The position numbers were made by a program, and so were the translations under genes. The notes under the pieces are model-generated. The model was given only the letters and a program-made list of their open reading frames with translations, ran no database searches and was not told the DNA's origin. Positions 9,301 to 64,000 of a stretch of DNA of 64,000 nucleotides are shown here, piece by piece. Each line of letters starts with the position of its first letter. Position 1 is the first letter of the stretch. The stretch is from positions 39,078,164 through 39,142,163 of the forward strand of contig CM049315.1 of the NCBI GenBank assembly GCA_026874595.1. The letters run 5' to 3'. Source of the stretch: Sipunculus nudus (taxonomy: Eukaryota; Annelida; Sipuncula; Golfingiida; Sipunculidae).

Positions 9301-9985
9301 GAACATTATTGCTTGCTTTTATTTACGTGCCATAAAGGTAACCGAGAGATAGTCACCGGTCGAAATAAACTTTGTTGCAAATACTGCCATCAGTTTTGTG
9401 GGGGTCTAAGAATGCTCAGATCTCAAGGGGAGATGTTATTTTAATGTTTTTTAAGCGTAAAAATAAAGGCCAATCTTTTATTATAAATAAATAAATAATT
9501 TGTTTGGGGGGGGGGGGTTAATATATATTTCTACATTTCGGATATTAAAAATTTAAGTTTTTACACATGTGGGCCTATGTGTATTTCTGTATGATTGTAT
9601 ATAGTCCAACCTTTCAACCCAAATTAACCAATCGTTGTTTCAACGCGAATTAGTTTTATATATTATACATAGACGGCAGCACCTTACGCCGTCGGTGACT
9701 AAGCAAATAAAATACCTGTGGACCAACCTCCAGCGCAGGGTCAGGATCTATTGTGGATACCTAGGGCCTCCGAGAGGAAAAATATGAGGCGGTACAAGAA
9801 GATTTCCGGGACCACTCTCTGCGCCTCCCCCCCCCCCCCCCCCCCCCCCGGATTCAGCTATATGGGTTCAATCAAATCTATACTCGAATTTAAGGTTGAA
9901 GCAATGTAGCTTAAGGGAGGGGAAACATACAATGGACTAAGAGAGGGGTGCACAGGAATGCTTGACCTTTATTCTGCATTTAAAC
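6350..9985. other. Gene-free stretch
   Basis: No supported gene. It contains poly-G tracts (about 6860-6874, 8356-8369, 9496-9508), a poly-C tract (about 9827-9850), a TG-rich interspersed element (8480-8700), and diffuse sequence rich in CTACGA-like motifs (6440-6745, 7200-7370, 9045-9175). Confidence 0.5.
8480..8700 (+). repeat. TG-rich interspersed element, copy 1
   Basis: A TG-rich microsatellite leads into a segment with ACGGAATCTCATTAAAT, GGGAATGGGC and GATTCAGGAGC. Related segments occur at 23185-23470, 23620-23900 and about 53405-53545 in this window. The body plus variable TG tract recurs as a unit, so this is an interspersed repeat family, not a random microsatellite. Confidence 0.75.
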
Positions 9986-10014
9986 CGTGTACTATATGGT
10001 ATGTTTTCATGTAT

Positions 10015-11048
10015 ATACTTTCTCCGCAATGACAGCCTCCATGCTTGTGAGTTCCAAGCAACGCAAACAATCAAATTCATTACAAATAATTATCGATAAA
10101 GATATTGTCCCGAATGTCGATGAATTTTCTCACCTTGGCTTGATCATTGACGCCCATCTCACATGGAAATCTCACACTTCTACCGTTTTTAAAAAGCTAT
10201 GTTGCAAAATTGGACTTTTACATCGGCTCAGCAAATTTCTACCACAGAAGTTTTTAGTCACTATATATCACGCCTTTGTTCAACCCTCAATAGATTATAG
10301 CCTAACAGTATGGGGCAGCTGTCCCAGCACATTCCGTGCCGCAATCCAACGAATGCAGTGTCGTGCGGCTAGGATAATAACAAAAAATTACGACCCAACA
10401 CAAAGAAGTTTAGATTTAGTGAAAGAAATAGGCTTAATGACAATTGAACAGCGATATTTGTACCTCCTATCTATTTTAACCTATAAATGCATAAATGATT
10501 TAGCCCCTTCATATTTATGTAAGAATTTTCATATGGCGAAGGGCATTCATAATTATTCGACGCGGTTAACCGAAAACAAAAACTGTATCCTTCCGAAACC
10601 GCGTATTGAAGCCTTCAAGGCTACCTCTTTTTATGCAGGCAGTACTCTATGGAACTCCCTTCCTCGACACATTAAGTTTGCTTCTAATTTGCAGCATTTT
10701 AAAAAATTATCACGTTCGTACTTCTCCGATTTTACAATGATGTCATAATCTTATCACAGCACGAAATTGTTTTAGATGTAATCGTTGCTCTCACCGCTGT
10801 TAGTACCGTCCCTTTTATTAATTTTATGATATTATCATTCCTTTGTAATGATTTTACAGTCTCATTATGTCTTTTATATTTCGCATTGTACATGTACTTT
10901 TATGTATTTTTATTATCATGTTCCATTGTTTATAATATCTTGTATATCTTGGAAGAGGGCCCTGCTTATAACAGAATTCTTATTCTGGTACAGGCCACCC
11001 TTCACAATATAATAATAATAATAATAATAATAAATAATAATAATAATG
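10015..11048 (+). mobile_element. 5'-truncated non-LTR retrotransposon (LINE), 3' end
   Basis: An open frame ending at 10748 encodes the C-terminal part of a LINE reverse-transcriptase protein. It shows the thumb-region landmark HLGLIIDAHLTWKSH, then a segment with PQKFLVTIYHAFVQPSIDYS followed by LTVWG, and the terminal domain with ALWNSLP-like TLWNSLPRHIK. The catalytic FADD-type palm motif lies upstream in such proteins and is absent, so the copy is 5' truncated. The frame is open to its natural stop, so the remnant is fairly young. About 270 bp of 3' untranslated sequence follows, ending in an (AAT)n tail at 11010-11046. The clade looks like CR1/L2/Jockey-type by general pattern, but I cannot assign it by eye. 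Confidence 0.85.
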
Positions 11049-20676: not shown

Positions 20677-20970
20677 TGGTCAATTTTTCTTTAAATCTGT
20701 GGCCAATCAAAGAGGTGTTGTCCAAATCCTTGTTTGGGACTGCTTATATTAGGTATTTTGGGCTTCACTGCATTCGGGCCAGGATGGTTAAAAAAGGAGT
20801 TACACAAGCCCCCTTTTTCTTGGTCAATTTTTCTTTAAATCTGTGGCCAATCAAAGAGGTGTTGTCCAAATCCTTGTTTGGGACTGCTTATTTTAGGTAT
20901 TCTGGGCTTCACTGCATTCGGGCCAGGATGGTTAAAAAAGGAGTTACACAAGCCCCCTTTTTCTTGGTCT
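20677..20970 (+). repeat. 144-bp tandem duplication, nearly identical
   Basis: TGGTCAATTTTTCTTTAAAT starts at 20677 and again at 20821, and the unit end TTTTTCTTGGTC recurs at 20965. The two 144-bp units differ at only two positions that I can see. Because 144 is a multiple of three, the forward frame (20667-20972) stays open through both copies, but it has no recognisable domain and is probably fortuitous. Confidence 0.95.
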
Positions 20971-31828: not shown

Positions 31829-34800
31829 ATGGCGGAAAACAATGTACCACTGGCGCCTATGACGGTGCAAGAAGTAAAAGCCTTAAGCATCAGACAGCTA
31901 GGCGATAAAGAGAGAATATTGATGGATATGGTCGAATCTGGTGATTATTATGATATCAAAGAATACTTGAAGGTTAGTAAATATGTTTACCTGTTATCAT
32001 ACTGAGGAATACTGTTGCAATTAGGAATTTCCTTCAAAGATTGTATAACATTGGCTCAGTATTACATCTGAAAACAATACATACCTTATTTACGATGATC
32101 ATATGAGAAACGAATCCGGGGGAGTTAAGGGGGTCTCAGCCGCAACAACCCGTCTTTTAAGAAACAAGTCTAATTTTTTTTTCTTCGAGGTAGTCCCCCT
32201 CCCCCCCCCCCACCTTTCCCCTTTTCCAGACATGAGTACCTTTTAAAAGGATTTTCAATAAGTGTTCCTGAGTTACACTTCTCAGGCAGCCGCCATCCCC
32301 TAGAGTAGTTCCAGATCTCCTTTGCGTTAACCGCTGCTTTGTATGTCAAGCTTTTTTTCAGGGTTTCAAGCTGGTACAGGGCCAAGGATTTTAATAAGAT
32401 CGATAAGATTGTGGTTTCGCATTGTGCACCAAACCAATGATAGAGGGCCGTCGCGGGTTTGAAACTTGAAGTTGGATGTAAAATCCGATACAACGTTCTC
32501 ATTGGTCTGATTACAATTCTTTGCCCTGTGCAAGCCCTGGTGCTGAAGCCCGGAAAATCTTGCTTTGCAAAGCAGCGGTTACAGCGAAGAAGATACACAG
32601 TGACTGCAGTTTATAGCCGCTGCGTGAGGATTGTATTCCTGGGTTGGATCCCCCTTTTCCCAATCCTGGATCTACCCCTGCATATGTATATACCAATCTC
32701 ACGAGGAACAAAAACACATAGGTGCCTACAAGGCTGGAAAATTATTTTTTTTAATGTTTTGTAGAAAACGGATGTAGACATAAACGCCCGGGACTACCAC
32801 GGTCGGTCCGTCCTACAGATCGCTGTGACCAACCAGTATAAGGAGATAGTGGAGCTCCTCTTGGAGGTTCCGGGCATCAGGATGGGGGACGCTCTCCACT
32901 TCGCCGCTAAGGAGGGAAACGACAACATCGTAGAGATGTTACTCGAATGGCAGGAGAGAGAGTGAGTAATATAACTCCTACACACGATCATACATACATA
33001 CATACATACAAACAAACCCACATGTCAAAGCACGTAGCCCCCTCCCACCCATACCTATACAGCCCCCCCCCCCCCCCACGCACACACATACACAATTAAC
33101 GTTAAAATGCGGCTCAGTTCTGGGTATAAATTTCGCACTTCTTTTCCACGACCAGTTGGTTTTTAGGGCCGCTATCTGAAATTTGCAAATGCCTATTGTT
33201 TTGCGCTTGGTATGTCGTTATGTGGCATATCATTAAGTAAGCCACAACTGAAAGAAAAGTATTTCTTGATGAATTTCCACCACCTTATTTTTCGTCATAG
33301 CGTGTAGCGTCAAGGGTTAACGCAGAAAAACTTAAAATAGCGGTTTTTCCATAATTTCGACATGCGACATGTGTTTAAGTATGTACAAACAAAATGACAG
33401 CCGTTCGAGAAACTGGGAGAAATTTCGCGGTTCGATAAACTTGCGCAGATGCGCAAGATAACATTCTGAGTAAAACGTTTAGGCGAGAACCATTCTGTAG
33501 AGAGAGTTTAATGGAAAGGGCACGTTAATCGGCAAAGTTGAAAGTGGAATAACGATTTTTTTCACCTCATTGCACTGAACTTATAAATCATATAATGACG
33601 TTACATCAAATCTTTAAAATAATAATACTTACTCTTTATTTTATCATTTACATTAAACAAGTGTAAACACATCCACTTCGCTCCCTTTTTCAAACAATGG
33701 AACAGGAAGTTAAGAGGTTATTGATGAGGACACCCACTGGGCCAAATGCTCTTTATCTGAAATTAATTACTCTCTGACAGGAGTTATTACGATTTGCAGA
33801 TAACCCTGTGTGAAACGCTGACAGTAATAACCTGTAATTATGCATGGTTTTATTGTTCAGCTAAAATTATATGCAAGCTCAAATTTGTTATGTTATGCTA
33901 TAAACTAACAAAGTATGCTAATATATTATTAAATAATATAAATTATATATATTGTTAAATTATTTATTTCCGTTTAGAAAAGCATATTTATCTACAATAC
34001 TATTTACTTTATTATAACGCACTATATTATACACAGTATGCTATTATAATTATAATATTATATATTTCAGGATTGTATAGGATAAAAAACGATAACGTAT
34101 CTTAGTTAAGATAAGCATACCTCTGTACTGTACTATATAGCTTTATATATTTTACTGTAATCTACCATATTATACTATACAATAATTGTATAAAATAATA
34201 TACATATGTAAAAATCTATTGTTCCGTCTAGTATCCATGTATTTAAGATTTGTCAAGTAGTAATGTACATAATGTATTGCTCCGCCTAGTTTCCAAGTAT
34301 TTTATCATTTGTTACTGTATAGAGACCAATTTTCATGAAATATGTCCTATTTTCATGAAATAGGGATATTTCTGCAAAGAAGGTTACTAGGACTCTTCAC
34401 ATTGCTTCCAAAAGCCCTTGCTTTGTACAGATAATGAATTTTCATTTTTTGGTCACAATTAGTCATTATTCATTGGTTTCTGATCTTTCTTTCGTATAAA
34501 ATCCTCATAACAGATATGACATGATTTTATTAAGTATGTCCGTATTTTTTCAGGAAGTCCGTCGTGGATGAGCCTTACATGAGCGCTGAGTTCGCGCCCC
34601 ACATGACCCCGCTCATGGTGGCGTGTCATCAGAACCACTACACCACTGTCCGTCTGTTCGTCCAGCGGGGCCAGACAGTGAAACCACCGACAAAAGCAGA
34701 TTGTGAGTAACGCATTTTTAACCCATGCGTTTTTGTGTCTGAGCTACGTATACTCTATCTGATTTGTTATCATTATGATTATTATTAATTTATTTATTAT

Positions 34801-36012
34801 ATTATAATATCACATTTAATATTATGAACAGCAATATTGGTAATGGTAGCTGTAAGAAATATTAGATATTCGTACATATTATTGTACTAGAATTAATATT
34901 AGTATCATCATTACTAAAATATTGGAATCAATATTTCTTGTTTTATCTTTACAAATTCCGCTTCACTGCTGGGTTTGTAGCCAAATAATTATCACAAATG
35001 ATTAACCACACTAAAAGATTTTGAAAACTAAGGATAAGAAAACACGATACGTTTAAGTTAGCCCGCCGTATTCGTATCTTTCTTGTCTAGACGAGAACAG
35101 TAAGTATGCAGAATACGGGGAGACATTGGAGCTGTCTCTGGCGAGGATTGACGCCTACCGAGCCATGACAAGCCCCAGCTACATCGCCCTGAGCAGTGAG
35201 GATCCTATCCTAGACGCGTTTGTCTTGAGTCATGAGGCGGAAAAACTGAAAGAAAAAGATCCAATCTTCCAGGTATTACGACAAGTACAGAAAACATTCT
35301 TCCTGGTATAAGTACCCAAAACGTAAAGGAAGGGTTAATAATACCTGATGAATTATTAAGGATTCCATAATGTAGGCTGTGTATGGAGCCCCTAACATAA
35401 TGCACATTTTTATTTATCACAAAGGACCACAGAAAATACAAACAAGTTTTTATTTCTGGGTTATTATCGCGTTCCCTCGCGATCTTTTCGCGTTCCCTCG
35501 CGATAATATCGCGTTCCCTCGCGATCTTTTCGCGTTCCCTCGCGATCTTTTTCGCGTTCCCTCGCGATCTTTTCGCGTTCCCTCGCGATCTGTTCGGCTA
35601 GGCTGGTTCCCTGCTCCTCTATATCTGGCATACATTCAAATAAATGGACGCGGGAACCAGTACAACAGTTTACTTTACCTCGTTCCTTGTGTCTTTAACA
35701 CCATTACGCTCCAATAAGATATTCGCTCGATGTCAGGTCGTGTTGTAATGTAGTTATTAAAGTGTGTATCAACAATGTTGGGTAAAGATTGTTAATAATT
35801 ATAAGTACATCTCAAATGGTCTGATAACACACACACACACACACACACACATATATTTATATATATCGTATATATGGCATAAATGTTTTCTTTAATATTT
35901 TATATCTTTTTCTTTTACCTTACATGAAATTAATATTAGACCGGATTCTATTAAATACTAAAAATACTGGACACAGTTCATCTTGGAAAATTGATACTTC
36001 CACTGTCAAAAC

Positions 36013-36082
<70 letters not shown>

Positions 36083-37700
36083 TCATGCTCCACATATCTG
36101 CTGTTTATTATTATGGATCCTCGGCCACCCAGAGATATGTGCAAACCGGTGTTTAAGATGATCTAATTTATCTGGAAACAACCTAAGACATACTAAAAAT
36201 AATCGGAATGTCTTAAAGTTATTAGATTTGCTATATAGAAATGACGCCTTCGTTGTTGGTCTTATATATTTATTACAGAAACACGATATATCACAAATAA
36301 CAATATATATAACAATAATGTCATCTTAGTACATACATACATTTTCAGGCATTTTTATCATATATTTATCATCTTTCCTTCTAAGATTTCTTCAGTTAAA
36401 ATTGCGGAAAAGTTAACAAATGATTCTCTTTTAAAAATTCGCATGAAATAATTCTATGAAACAAAATGTTAATGAGTAATATATATCTGAAGATGGTGTA
36501 AGAGAGACTAAAATAGACTTAATGGGAAGATCGTGCTGGCCGGCCCTGATTCGGGGGTTCGACCCAGCAATGGGATAGATTACGCACCCAGGGCTCGCAA
36601 GTGCAGTGGTCACCGGGCCTGGTTACCGCAAGGAAAAAAAATCAGAAGAAGCGTGCGATAATGCCGTGTCACATAATCCGAAAGCGGAATGGAATTCTGC
36701 AGATGTTAATATTAAAATAAAGAAAATGGTGGCGGTGACCTCCAACAAAAAAATCTTTAATAAAAGAGTAATTGTAAATGCCAAAAGTAAAGTTTGCAAA
36801 TGTCAAACTGGAAAGGAGGCATAACAATCCAGTAAAATGTCCATCTGGCTCGTACTAATTAAAAGTCAAGAACCAGGTCCCAGATATCAAAATAAGCAGT
36901 TTTTATTCTCATTCTCTAAAGGTCGGTTCTATGCTTCATTTGTTTACCGACTGGCAAATGAAGAATGTGTTGGTCCTCCCAGGGCATGCTTGTGGTTTTG
37001 TATTCACTGGTGTGGGGTCGGCAAATAAGTTAAATATTTCTGTTTCTTAATGGAGAATCACATTTACAAAAAATACATTAATGAGACAAGGTTGGTATAA
37101 AAATGATCTAGGGTAAAATAACCCTCTGAACACTGGAATATCTGCATACTAGTGTTTAGTATCAGAAGAAGAAGAACAGATGAGGCCTAAAGCCAAAAAT
37201 AATTATGAGACTGTTACAACTGATAATGTAAAACCAACTGATAAAGTAATAAATAAATGACCGATAACTTATCACTAACCAATAATGTAATGCGAAGTCA
37301 AACGATAATGTAACAGATTTTACTAGCCGTTAACGTAAAACAGAATTAATTGGTAAATTAAAAACATTTCAGTGAACCTGACCAAACCAAATTGGACCTC
37401 CCGCATGCTTCTTGGACAATACATGCATTTTTTTAGCTGAGTTGACCATAGGTCATCAGAGCATTAGTGATCACCCCTTGTCCGTCCAAGCATAAATTGG
37501 TCTCTTTCGCGTCGCACTTTTCATGTCTTGTATTATGATTATATAGCACAACTTAGGACATCAAAAGTTCAGAACATTTCATAATGATAAATTCAAACCA
37601 GTTGGGGATCCAGAAATTTCAGAATTTAGGCTGGGGGGGGGGGTCAAACTGGGTATGATTAAAATAAAAGTTCTTAAATTGCGCATTTAAGTTTTTGTTT

Positions 37701-37772
<72 letters not shown>

Positions 37773-39285
37773 GCGCGCGAACTTCCGATCTTAAGAAGGA
37801 CCAGTCCAATATGCGATCATGATCTGCCGATGCATTCCTACAGCTTTGAATTAAAAGAAAGAAAAGAAAAGATTAAATAAATATGAGTTAATCATCTACG
37901 AGTATTATAATTTGTATATTTTATGGTATTATGCGTTGAAAGTAGCTGGTGGGTGGAAAGGTATATACCTGCAAAGGTTCTATACCTTGTACAATGATTT
38001 AAATAAATTTAAATACGTGTATATTTTTTGTATTTTTTGTCTTATTTTATAAATAACAGATGTGTATAAAATAATACCAATATCAGTAAATGAACATAGG
38101 GAGATGGGCATGTGCAAAGTTGATATTGTTGATTGGTAATTTGGCCTGACCCATCTTAAAATGGGTCTGAACCAATAACTGACGTGAAAAATATTATTAA
38201 TTTCTGTCAATTACATCGGGATATGGACCTGTTCCATGTTGACATTGTTGATCCGTTGTTTGGTCTGACTGCTAATAAAAAAAGAGATAGAAAAGAATAA
38301 TTTGATAATCTAATTGCTAAAAATATAAAAAGAAGTCTGCAAAAAAATGAATAAATGGGGAACAGATAACATGTATCAGAAACATGGCAAAAAGTCTAAT
38401 CTCTCTTATTCAAGTATCGCTTTGTTAACCTGACATCGAGTGTATATCTAAGAGGTGGAGCATGGTGGTGTTAAAGACACAGAACGAGACACAGATAACT
38501 GATGTTCTGGTTCCTGCGTCCACTTTTCTGTATGCTAGATGTTGCATGCTAGATATAGGGGAGCAGGGAACCAGCCTAGTGATCATTTGTAAGATCGCGA
38601 GGGAACGCGAAAAGATCGCGAGGGAACGCGAAAAAGATCGCGAGGGAACTCGAAAAGATCGCGAGGGAACGCGAAAAGATCGCGAGGGAACGCGAAATTA
38701 TCGCGAGGGAACGCGAAAAGATCGCGAGGGAACGCGAAAAGATCGCGAGGGAACGCGAAATTATCGCGAGGGAACGCGAAAAGATCGCGAGGGAACGCGA
38801 AATTATCGCGAGGGAACGCGAAAAGATCGCGAGGGAACGCGAAAAGATCGCGAGGGAACGCGAAATTATCGCGAGGGAACGCGAAAAGATCGCGAGGGAA
38901 CGCGATATTTACCCAGAAAAAAAATATCACGTATGTCACTTTAGGGGCTCCATAGCTGTGCAATACAAGAAATAAAAAAAATAAGAAGTCAAGATTTTTA
39001 ACTAAATCCCAACATGTAGCACCACCAATATCAAATTGTTACAATTGATTTGTTTAACCTCAGAACGCTTACGAGGAGCTGGGACAACAGTGTCGCGGCC
39101 TGGCGGTGGGTTTGTTGAACGAGTGCAGGACGTCGGAGGAAGTCTACTACCTGCTGGCCCAGACCCACGATGCTGAGCTAACCGGCATGGCACCTGATCC
39201 AGACTTCCCAAGGCTGCAGCTAGCCTTAGATTTCGAACAGAAAGAGGTTATAGAGCTTCTGATTAATTAATCAACAACAAAGATA

Positions 39286-39347
<62 letters not shown>

Positions 39348-42300
39348 AACTTACTGTCATATTGGTACTTAGGAACGCTTTAAAAAAGGCAATAACTTGC
39401 GGTGTGATGCTATTGAATGCAAATACCTCTAGAAATAAATATTAATAAAGGTAATAAGAACATTATCTTCATATTTATAAGTCAAGAGGTGAAATGACAC
39501 ATACATGCCTCGGGCCAGTCAAGGCTACTGATAGTATCTTACAATAATTGATTTGACTATAAGTAACCTCTACCAAGCAAATACTGACAAAGTATTTTTC
39601 ATTAACAATACTTTACTTTTCCTGTTTCAGTTCATCACTCATCCTCACTGCCAGCAGGTGTTACAGAACATCTGGACAGCGCATCATCCGGAAATTATGC
39701 TGATGAGTCCGTTGATGACGTTACTGTATTTCATACCTCGGATTCTCCTTTTGCCGTTCGTATACATCGGCTATTTCTTCCTTCCGTGGTTGAAATGCTG
39801 GGAACCTTGGAAAGCCCCCATGAACAAATTCGTCGGGCAGACTTTCTCCTTCTTGACTTTCATCGTCCTTGTTATAGTGAGTATGAGTACTGGACAGTAC
39901 GATAAGCGTGCGCCAGACATACGCGGACTGGATATTTGCATATACATCTGGGTGGCAGCTTACATATGGATGCAAATGAAGCGTACATGGTTCGGTGGCA
40001 CCAAACTGTACGTCAAGTACTGGTGGAATATATACGATGCTTTCATGTTGTTGCTGTTTGTGGTATCGTTCGTGGCCCGTTTCGCATCGTGGGTCAGAGC
40101 TATAAACGACCGCGCTTACAGGGAGGTGGAGCGTCGTTTCTGGCCTTGGAATGACCCGATGCTGGTGTCCGAAGCGTTTTACTGCGCAGCCAGTGTTATG
40201 GCAATAGGCAGGATCATGTACCTTTTCATGCTCAGCAGAATCCTCGGACCAATGCAGCTGTCTCTCGCCAGAATGATGTACGACGTTCTGCAGATGCTCC
40301 TCCTTTTCTTCCTGACCATGTTTGCCTTTTCTTTTGGTATGAACCGTATGTACAGATATTACGACGGTATGCAATCGTTCAACCCCAACAGTCGCACTCC
40401 AACTGCTACGCAAAATGCCGCCTATTCCACGTAAGTTAGTTAAGCTATATATAATTTTTAGCTAAGTGTAATCATTCAAAGTGTTATGAAACATTAATAT
40501 AAACATATTTGAATTTAGCTATTCCGACTGTATGATTCAAAGAGAATTGTTCGATCAACCGTTTGCCTATTAAGTATTGCATTGAGTTAATGATATATAA
40601 GGATATGTGCAGAGCTTCACATTGTCTGCAGAAGAACATTTAACGTTTTTTGGAAGCAACGACCATGTTCTCGTTCCATAACTCTGGCGACCATCTGATT
40701 TATTTTACTTCTCGTTTCTTGGACTTTCCTGAAAAGTCCTGATTGACCATGCAAAAATATAAGCCTTATATAAGTATGATTATATATGTATATATGAGAT
40801 GCAAATCACCGGTTTTACATGGAAAGGAAAATAATTATTTCCATTAGATGAATAAATAACCCTGTTTGTCTAATGCAGATGGGAACAGTCATTCAGTACG
40901 TTCTTCTGGAATCTCTATGGACACGGTGGTCCTGAAAACGCCGACGTTGTCATGGACAACAGGTACAACTCCACCTACATATTACCAGAGAACAAGCACC
41001 ATTTTACCGAGGTCACGGGGTACATTTTAAACGGCATGTATCACCTGATCACGGTGACGACACTGTTGAACATGCTGATCGCTATGATGTCAAACACGCT
41101 GACTCATGTTCAAGTAAGAACGAGAAGTAATTGAGAAAATTTAAACAAATTCGTAGTGATTATATCATAACGTCACTAAATGAAACCATATATTACCATT
41201 GCTATCCTCAGTCAGAGTATATTGATATATAAATGTACCCTTCCTCAGTTACCTGCATTATAACAATGTTCTGTCTGCTTACGTACGTCTAAATGCCTCA
41301 TTTAAGCATACCTTAGTGAATTGAGAAATTCAAGATTTATACAAATTCGTAGTGATTATATCATAACTTCAATATATAAAACCATATATTACCATTGCTA
41401 TCCTCGGTCAGAGTAAATTGTTATATAAATGCACCCTTCTATCAGCTACCTACATTATAACAATGTTATATCTGCGTGCGTCTTTCCAAAATGCCTTATT
41501 TATGCATAGCCAAGTGAATTGAGAAATTCAAGATTTATACAAAATCGTAATGATTATATCATAACTTCAATATATAAAACCATATATTACCATTGCCATC
41601 CTCGGTCAGTGGGTTGTAATATAAATGCACCCTTCTTGAAATTATCTATATTATTACAATGCTATGTCTGAGTGCGTCTTACCAAAATACCTCATTTATT
41701 TATAACTTTGTGAATAACCCTCGAACGCTCTTTCAGTCATTTTACAGAAAGGACAATTTAGAGAAACATCAAATAATTCCAAACAACGGACTAAAAATAC
41801 ATTTGTTACCCACATACATAAGGTACACAAGAATCCACTTAAGCTTTTAACACGCATTATACGCACACATGCAGTGCTGTTTTTATTTTTTTAGGATAAT
41901 GCTGACAAAGAATGGAAATTCGCCCGCTCCCAGCTGTGGATGGATTTCTTCAGTCACGGTGGGACTTTGCCCCCTCCACTCAACGTCATTCCCAGTCCAA
42001 AGTCCATCTTCAGACTCTTCCTGTGGATTAAACTAAAGATCTGTGGAGGCAGTCCTACCCAGGGAGAACCTAAATGTTCCATGGATGTAAGCAGTTTTCA
42101 ATATATCCTAAAAATATGTTATTATATCCAAAGTGATCTCGAGTACCAAGCACGTATTTGAACATAACGTTTCACATTGTTTGCACTATACACTGTATAT
42201 TCCTTTTCTTCTTTCAGAGGTGCTACTATATAGAGACTGATGAAGATAAAAGAGACCAGGCTGAATTTCAGAGAGAATTCAAAGTAAGAAAAAATATAAA

Positions 42301-63040: not shown

Positions 63041-64000
63041 CCATAGTCTGACACACACCCTTTATACTTGCTTATGAATTTACTTAAGACAGTCTGTGCC
63101 ATGTCTGTGACAATCTTGTGACAGTGACAATCTTGTGACACACACCCCTTATACTTGCTTGTAAATTTGCTTGGGAAAGTCAATGCCATGTTTGCGACAA
63201 TCTTGTGACAGTGACAATCTTGTGACACACACCCTTTATACTTGCTTGTAAATTTGCTCGGGGAAAGTCTGTGCCATGTTTATGACAATCTTGTGACAGT
63301 GACAATCTTGTAACACACACCCTTTACACTTGCTTGTAAATTTGATTGGGAAATTCTATGCCATGTTTGTGACAATCTTGTGACAGTGACAATCTTGTGA
63401 CACACACCCCTTATACTTGCTTATAAATTTGCTTGGGACAGTCTGTGCCATGTTTGTGACAGTGACAATCTTGTGACACACACCCTTTATACTTGCTTGT
63501 AAATTTGATTAGGAAAGTCTGTGCCTTGTTTATGACAATCTTGTGACAGTGACAATCTTGTGACACACACCCCTTATACTTGCTTGTAAAATTGCTTGGG
63601 AAAGTCTATGCCATGCTTGTGACAATATTTTGACAGTGACAATCTTGTGACACACTCCCTTTATACTTGCTTGTAAATTTGTTTGGGAAAGTCTATGCCA
63701 TGTTTGTGACAATCTTGTGACAACTTTGTGACACACTCCCTTTATGCTTGCAGGTACATTTGCTTGGGAAAGTCTATGCCATGTTTGTGACAATCTTGTG
63801 ACAATGACAATCTTGTGACACACACCGTTTATACTTGCTTGTAAATTTGCTTGGTAATGTCAATGCCATGTTTGTGACAATCTTGTGACAATCTTGTGAC
63901 ACACTCCCTTTATGCTTGCTGGTAAATTTGCTTGGGAAAGTCTGTGCCATGTTTATGACAATCTTGTGACAGTGACAATCTTGTAACACACACCCTTTAC
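63040..64000. repeat. 87-bp satellite array, reaching the window edge
   Basis: The landmark TTATACTTG (or TTACACTTG, TTATGCTTG) occurs at 63062, 63149, 63236, 63324, 63411, 63487, 63574, 63661, 63742, 63829, 63910 and 63997. Spacing is mostly 87 bp, with 76- and 81-bp units where an internal subrepeat is missing. Each unit contains CTTGTAAATTTGCTTGGGAA, GTGCCATGTTTGTGACA and one or two copies of GACAATCTTGTGACA. As 87 is 29 codons, minus-strand frames stay open in stretches (unit includes SQDCHCHKIV and SKFTSKYKG), which I take as fortuitous. The array continues beyond the window. Confidence 0.97.

Follow-up and report, generated by a model that had tools for sequence, protein, structure and literature searches.

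What two inverted arrays of a 21-bp minisatellite are doing within a single intron of a TRPC gene is the question raised by the stretch of DNA considered here, a window of 64,000 nt from Sipunculus nudus (GCA_026874595.1, CM049315.1, 39,078,164 to 39,142,163 of the forward strand). An earlier note on this DNA had taken the arrays for parts of two copies of one element lying head to head. Positions 35382-38954 of the window are instead a single DNA transposon, with the minisatellites contained within its terminal inverted repeats (TIRs). We propose, at a probability of roughly 85%, that a single non-autonomous foldback transposon of the IS3EU type lies in a TRPC intron of about 210 bp and that its arrays serve as phased transposase sites and as recombination joints.

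The arms are the inverted ends of one element rather than two elements, because the DNA between the arrays recurs in order between like ends and a single outer target site duplication (TSD) surrounds the whole. Both minisatellites, of about 6 and about 15 units, and their reverse-complement flanks are present as had been claimed: Tandem Repeats Finder (TRF) places the left array at 35467-35596 (period 21, 6.1 copies) and the right array at 38591-38905 (period 21, 15.0 copies), and an inverted-arm search found the longest inverted arms to measure 128 nt (95%) and 104 nt (96%), with the flanks on the inward side of the arrays matching by 76.6% across 154 bp. When the flank of the left array was used to search the genome, 40 of 215 candidates were scored, giving 40 matches; 30 of these were made into loci, and in them the similarity continues from the flank into the inter-array DNA of the window. 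Other copies have the interior in identical order, with an identity of about 90-97%, and in the four copies that were read to the far end the similarity reaches a second inverted array and GGGGCTCCATA. The TSD of the window element is a perfect 6-bp GCTGTG, one pair of which encloses the entire 3,573 bp; the exact borders are 35382 and 38954, compared with 35374 and 38955 in the earlier note.

It is hardly credible that two separate short elements inserted head to head in this intron. Either arm does resemble a unit with similar flanks, and a genuine head-to-head pair of full elements exists at C12:45323220-45330740, but the inter-arm DNA of the window is the same in other copies, within like ends and one TSD, and the left arm is of the TAATA type and the right arm of the TAATT type, an order that two random insertions would not fix. 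The earlier note had allowed that the flanks might have no other genomic copies, or might match through a local inversion alone; copies with their own ends and TSDs are found genome-wide, and a local inverted duplication is thereby ruled out. The element and its surroundings comprise the following parts.

35273 to 39063, + strand: TRPC intron with the element, 3,791 bp, GT at 35273 and AG at 39063 read from the sequence
35376 to 35381, no strand: left TSD copy GCTGTG, flank read
35382 to 38954, + strand: entire non-autonomous foldback-type, IS3EU-like transposon of subfamily A, 3,573 bp, ends TATGG...CCATA
35382 to 35395, + strand: left terminus TATGGAGCCCCTAA, sequence read
35395 to 35461, no strand: foreign filler standing where the left end usually has AGTGACATACGTG, matching loci L040 and L041
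35464 to 35596, + strand: left minisatellite, 6 units of TCGCGTTCCCTCGCGATCTTT with the left-type spacer TAATA inside, from TRF and arm comparison
35597 to 35745, + strand: left inverted arm, inner part, from arm comparison
35746 to 38395, + strand: interior (module A), containing microsatellites of AT and of CA and a stop-to-stop frame of at most 112 amino acids
38396 to 38590, - strand: right inverted arm, inner part, from arm comparison
38591 to 38905, - strand: right minisatellite, 15 units with the right-type spacer TAATT inside, from TRF
38906 to 38954, - strand: right terminus, ending ...CACGTATGTCACTTTAGGGGCTCCATA, sequence read
38955 to 38960, no strand: right TSD copy GCTGTG, flank read

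At the left end of the window element the usual terminal stretch is interrupted after 14 bp by the filler, which matches two other genomic places over 50-70 bp (35392-35461 in L040 at 96%, 35395-35444 in L041 at 100%) and perhaps came from break repair. ARAGORN found no tRNA in 35000-39400, and the ten Rfam matches in 34000-40000, mostly to miRNA families on AT repeats, all scored below the gathering scores of their families. A B-box-like GGTTCGACCC stretch seen by eye at 36520-36630, within the element, is perhaps an old piece of a short interspersed element (SINE).

The terminal 27-mer, allowing at most 2 mismatches, has 188 matches in the 1.43-Gb genome (88 forward, 100 reverse) against 0 for the reversed control, and chance is therefore excluded. 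When TIRs less than 30 kb apart were paired among the first 100 listed of these 188 end sites, 25 pairs resulted, 22 of them spanning 667-4,299 bp and three spanning 14.9, 21.3 and 23.5 kb. Both flanks were read for all 25 pairs and for the window copy: the TSD is an exact 6 bp in 21 of the 26, agrees in 5 of 6 bases in four, and is offset by one base in the 14.9-kb copy on C2. No fixed motif is apparent among the 21 exact hexamers. The copy at C13:51043695 has AAATAT on either side, one C2 end reads CCATT instead of CCATA, and the 667-bp copy, which has an exact TSD, consists of little beyond ends, arrays and a short spacer. The 30 loci from the flank search divide into 8 of subfamily A, the window included, and 22 of subfamily B, which has an extra stretch that on translation by hand resembles a piece of the reverse transcriptase of a long interspersed element (LINE; KYADDTV...). 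We rejected a LINE or SINE with a variable number of tandem repeats as the source of the arrays: the subfamily B flank resembles a reverse transcriptase fragment, yet the copies bear TIRs and a TSD at either end.

Two arrangements of ends fall apart from the common form. In the C12 pair (L011), which is outside the TSD sample, two full elements lie head to head 6 bp apart with AGAATC at all three junctions, so that either one target was used repeatedly or the pair arose in a joint event. At C15:7502689-7507397 (L079) four end sites of the same orientation follow one another at about 1.5 kb, and repeats of the right-end half of the element are found in the 1.7 kb read from this locus, a satellite-like array derived from a transposon end.

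To which superfamily does the element belong? Passages of PMC12730594 and PMC10045372 give the IS3EU signature as TAYGG..CCRTA termini with a 6-bp TSD (here and below, published work is cited from excerpts). The family of the window has a TSD of 6 bp, termini TATGG..CCATA and TIRs longer than 30 bp (about 46 bp plus the array), and its larger relatives carry, at the domain level, an IS3/IS481-like DDE transposase. Because the ends, the TSD length and the rve-type domain agree with the printed signature, the element fits the IS3EU type. Its long TIRs, mostly made of short tandem repeats in variable number, are those of a foldback element.

A transposase match lies near the right end in all three of the long TIR pairs and in none of the 22 short ones. 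Among the open reading frames of the 14.9-kb C2 copy there is an integrase-core match near the right end (Pfam rva_4, 5.1e-11); the same family scores 1.3e-24 in C16 and 3.4e-14 in C7, and rve reaches 0.0013 in C16, which is below the cut-off. In C7 the match and the end at 18710345 are 1.6 kb apart, and the partner end of that copy is truncated. The C2 integrase piece has 88 matches in the genome, led by C2 itself, with C7 at 94%, C16 at 94%, C14:192574 at 93% and C6 at 89%; C14:47277461 matches at 79% across 72 residues, a similarity of protein only, and other families reach at most 70%, apart from one short match of 74%. The transposase core had 0 matches among PDB sequences up to an E of 1. 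Two side observations concern these larger copies: a HECT ubiquitin-ligase match (1.9e-6) lies to the left of the transposase in the 14.9-kb relative (L046:4983-5630, + strand), and in the C16 transposase region (L082/L088) about 1 kb of 15-bp repeats (GGACAATTACCCCCC), in both orientations, lies between two transposase coding parts.

Several other classes of element were considered. Mutator elements of the FB type have TSDs of 8-11 bp and a MULE transposase, and the 6-bp TSD and the rve-type transposase exclude both Mutator (FB type) and the P superfamily (Galileo type). Polintons, or Mavericks, have 5'-AG ends and genes for DNA polymerase B, an ATPase and capsid proteins; they were rejected on the TA ends and on the presence of HECT and integrase-core domains only in the seven C2 open reading frames scanned, the 6-bp TSD being common to both. 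Helitrons and Helentrons are not known to have 6-bp TSDs or long TIRs. A reading of the element as a non-autonomous Helitron, similar to Helentron/DINE-1 or to pearl and with its minisatellite in the centre, a kind common in bivalves, has next to no chance of being right: excerpted reports do describe array-bearing Helentron elements in bivalve genomes, but a 6-bp TSD, long TIRs and an rve-type transposase between matching ends are all present here.

The suspicion in the earlier note of a mobile family carrying expandable arrays was well founded, as there are many copies and the arrays range from 5 to 39 units on the left (n=32 measured) and from 6 to 39 units on the right (n=9 measured), with none of the 32 left and 9 right arrays having fewer than 5. 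The 32 left arrays include L015 and L016, which are one duplicated place, L009, which is the window, and L023, L029 and L034, in which the usual terminus is absent. Of 476 core-to-core intervals, 446 measure 21, 25 measure 22, 4 measure 20 and 1 measures 24, and CGCG follows CGCG at a spacing of 10 (621 times), 11 (543), 12 (32), 9 (1) or 2 (2), a recurrence of about one helical turn. Arrays start 46-47 bp inside the TAYGG terminus; the offset of 82 bp at the left end of the window element is due to the filler inserted there. The left arrays contain the spacer TAATA 91 times and TAATT not once, and the right arrays contain TAATT 49 times and TAATA twice; since the two types are distinct, the arms do not exchange freely.

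In B-DNA, 21 bp correspond to two helical turns. We propose that the element would be moved in trans by transposase from the larger relatives of 15-23 kb with matching ends, and that each unit may be bound by the transposase or a partner. As 21 bp makes two turns and CGCG recurs every 10 or 11 bp or so, such sites would lie on one face of the helix, where many could be held together as both ends are joined.

The DNA upstream of related transposase matches, 54-70% identical to that of the window family, was read at 17 loci, and an array of about 21-bp period is present in all 17, with at least 5 units in 16. Six further unit types were found, mostly palindromic: TTACTAATTCGTGCGCACGAA in L085, L086, L087, L096, L102, L107 and L109, with a variant in L111 (2.9 units); TTAACTTGTGCGCACGACTTA in L100, with a variant in L112; TCCGCCCGGGCGGATTACTAT in L098; a 43-bp double unit in L101; TATCTCGTACGTACGACATAC in L103; and ATCTCGAGATCCCGAAATAAC, present about twice ahead of A-rich repeats with lengths of 20-23 bp, in L099, L104, L105 and L106. 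In L102, too, a stretch of these A-rich repeats lies before the sister end, and the unit TTCGTGCGCACGAA is carried by a sister-family copy whose transposase core frame is open. When 12 ends were compared, TACGG was found 34-46 bp ahead of the first unit in all of them, marking candidate termini, and GACAY with an A/T tract lies between TACGG and the first unit in 11 (the exception being L103); in L087 no terminus was found. Dyad symmetry reached a shuffle P of at most 0.03 in 6 of the 8 units or half-units tested. Arrays of the 21-letter type at the ends of related elements suggest that the arrays may help the enzyme to grip DNA, and because the sequence turns over while the period near the ends stays, the units are putative transposase sites.

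The second role that we propose for the arrays comes from the largest copies. The left part of the C16 element is window-type interior (91-97% in matched pieces), after which come seven units in reversed and one in forward orientation, and then sequence of the C2 element. The identical join is found in C14 with three reversed units and in C7 with five, which places the junction of modules A and B inside an array in all three composites examined. Module A is common to other copies and to the 21-23 kb composites. Because the join is repeated in C16, C14 and C7, the 21-23 kb form is present at three places, and at two of them (C16 and C14) it has exact TSDs. The 3-4 kb form resembles the left module of the 21-23 kb form set between ends, and the 15-kb form resembles the right module. 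The arrays may double as recombination joints, the 3.3-4.3 kb, 15-kb and 21-23 kb forms differing by entire modules joined within arrays. Composites could have originated by exchange within like-oriented arrays, or neighbours such as the C12 pair could have fused with loss of the inner ends.

A number of observations weigh against these roles. In the family of the window no complete transposase gene was seen, the longest open core being 224 amino acids (C16), and the standing of C16 and C14 as one element each is judged from TSDs and module order. L111 has the terminus TACTG with its array of 2.9 units 105 bp inward (TRF), and L099, L104, L105 and L106 have just two clear 21-bp units before the A-rich repeats. 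Where the sister family has a second transposase-like copy, the ends next to it carry two units in L097 and L108 and none in L110; this presumed end is an internal junction, because the identical flank occurs at three places. Of the two L101 half-units one lacks a significant dyad (P 0.24), as does the unit of the window (5 of 10 pairs, shuffle P 0.20). A few short arrays of 20-22 bp, of at most 3.8 copies, occur elsewhere in the fetched loci, and two or three units alone therefore mean little.

Some of these points would favour the view that the arrays are functionless by-products of slippage or unequal exchange, with the 21-bp period an inherited accident. The left arrays vary from 5 to 39 units, the window unit lacks a significant dyad, short arrays of 20-22 bp exist elsewhere too, and the authors of work on Galileo likewise discuss recombination-driven array growth (PMC3573991, in excerpt). 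By-products would not be expected to take the form of arrays of about 21 bp but different sequence near the ends of related families, or to show the dyads found in most of the units tested, or to lack arrays of fewer than 5 units in the window family, and the rest of the 64-kb window holds just two other arrays of period 18-24, of 2.2 and 2.6 copies. On this evidence we regard the by-product view as unlikely, though deserving of serious attention. Whether the transposase-site reading extends to a rule for an entire clade of IS3EU-type transposons of animals, in which subterminal arrays of about 21 bp, usually palindromic, have turned over in sequence while keeping their period and, where readable, their position (34-47 bp), seems to us evenly balanced. 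If it does, iteron-like arrays would form a multivalent, helically phased platform co-evolving with the transposase, and the repeated origin of foldback transposons would be explained.

The earlier note had also suggested that the arms could pair in the pre-mRNA. Such pairing is strongly predicted by folding, as foldback ends would lead one to expect: the arms gain -268.1 kcal/mol on pairing compared with -40.5 +/- 7.6 for 30 shuffles, and in the minimum-energy fold of the whole intron 124 of 129 paired bases of the left array have their partner in the right array. In the TRPC transcript the arms would probably pair with most of the intron looped out, as a side effect of the transposon's structure. 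The pairing gain far beyond shuffles and the joining of the arms in the whole-intron fold could also be taken to mean that the arrays act mainly in RNA, with hairpins that supply the small-RNA or editing machinery or make the intron effectively shorter. We consider this improbable, as any foldback element yields such pairing, and it leaves unexplained both the period of about 21 bp and the arrays beside transposase genes in families without a demonstrated matching arm.

The placement of both arrays in one TRPC intron stands. The host gene is assigned to the TRPC type because the exon preceding the intron has a TRP_2 match (Pfam, 1e-15) and an exon farther along has an Ion_trans match (3.5e-12); one more exon has a weak match below the cut-off (1.1e-4), and the exon immediately 3' of the intron matched no Pfam family. 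The element makes up 94% of the intron, which without the element and one TSD copy would measure about 212 bp, and the locus is an example of a single insertion making a long intron from a short one. Elsewhere in the window there are an array of about 87 bp with 17-bp subrepeats (TGACAATCTTGTGACAG) at 63049-63999, extending to the window end, a 144-bp tandem duplication of 98% identity at 20677-20969, and an open frame of 254 amino acids at 9984-10748 on the + strand that by eye resembles the end of a LINE reverse transcriptase.

Foldback elements have been recognised for many years. The present family is one that is linked to transposase-bearing relatives with like ends in the same genome, which bears on the role of repeated ends, and it shows modules joined within arrays. 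The six further unit types beside related transposases permit a direct test of the role of the arrays; since period and position are kept and sequence is changed, co-evolution of protein and DNA should be readable and open to footprinting.

As bivalve mobile elements with tandem arrays, the pearl and Helentron elements and the array-bearing elements of oysters resemble the window family; pearl and Helentron elements are not known to have a 6-bp TSD or an rve-type transposase. Close to the window family are the IS3EU/GingerRoot elements, including the fungal Styx, which share the 6-bp TSD, the TAYGG..CCRTA termini, TIRs longer than 30 bp, an rve-type DDE transposase and large elements with extra genes; for Styx, classed in IS3EU, recent movement with 6-bp duplications is reported. 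They differ in that foldback ends of 21-bp arrays and modules joined through arrays are not described in the excerpts of PMC12730594, PMC10045372 and PMC10853768. More widely, excerpted literature on IS3EU, GingerRoot, foldback and mollusc elements and on subterminal palindromic 21-bp repeats does not describe an IS3EU foldback or ends of 21-bp arrays. Tandem repeats related to IS3EU are known from Tribolium (TCAST10; PMC5844308) and oyster (CgiSat35 and CgiSat47; PMC8268682), with far longer monomers, of at least 486 bp for TCAST10 and of 690 and 129 bp for the oyster satellites as against 21 bp here, and the excerpts do not describe them as end arrays.

Tetris and the foldbacks placed in Mutator (FB, Tm1) are similar in their long TIRs with tandem repeats, in being non-autonomous and in that their arrays can turn into satellites (PMC4079207). 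Tetris differs in its 220-bp repeats and TSD of 8-10 bp, and its transposase was not found by its authors, as the excerpt has it (PMC4079207), whereas the window family has transposase-bearing relatives with like ends. Galileo, a member of the P superfamily in Drosophila, resembles the window family in its very long TIRs with internal repeats and variable length, and in its chimeric copies (PMC3688188, PMC3573991); it differs in a unit of about 210 bp instead of 21, in a 7-bp TSD and in a THAP-bearing P-superfamily transposase instead of an rve-type enzyme. The THAP domain of Galileo binds sites in the tandem repeats of the long TIRs, and the authors propose that having such sites may make up for what the length costs (PMC3688188).

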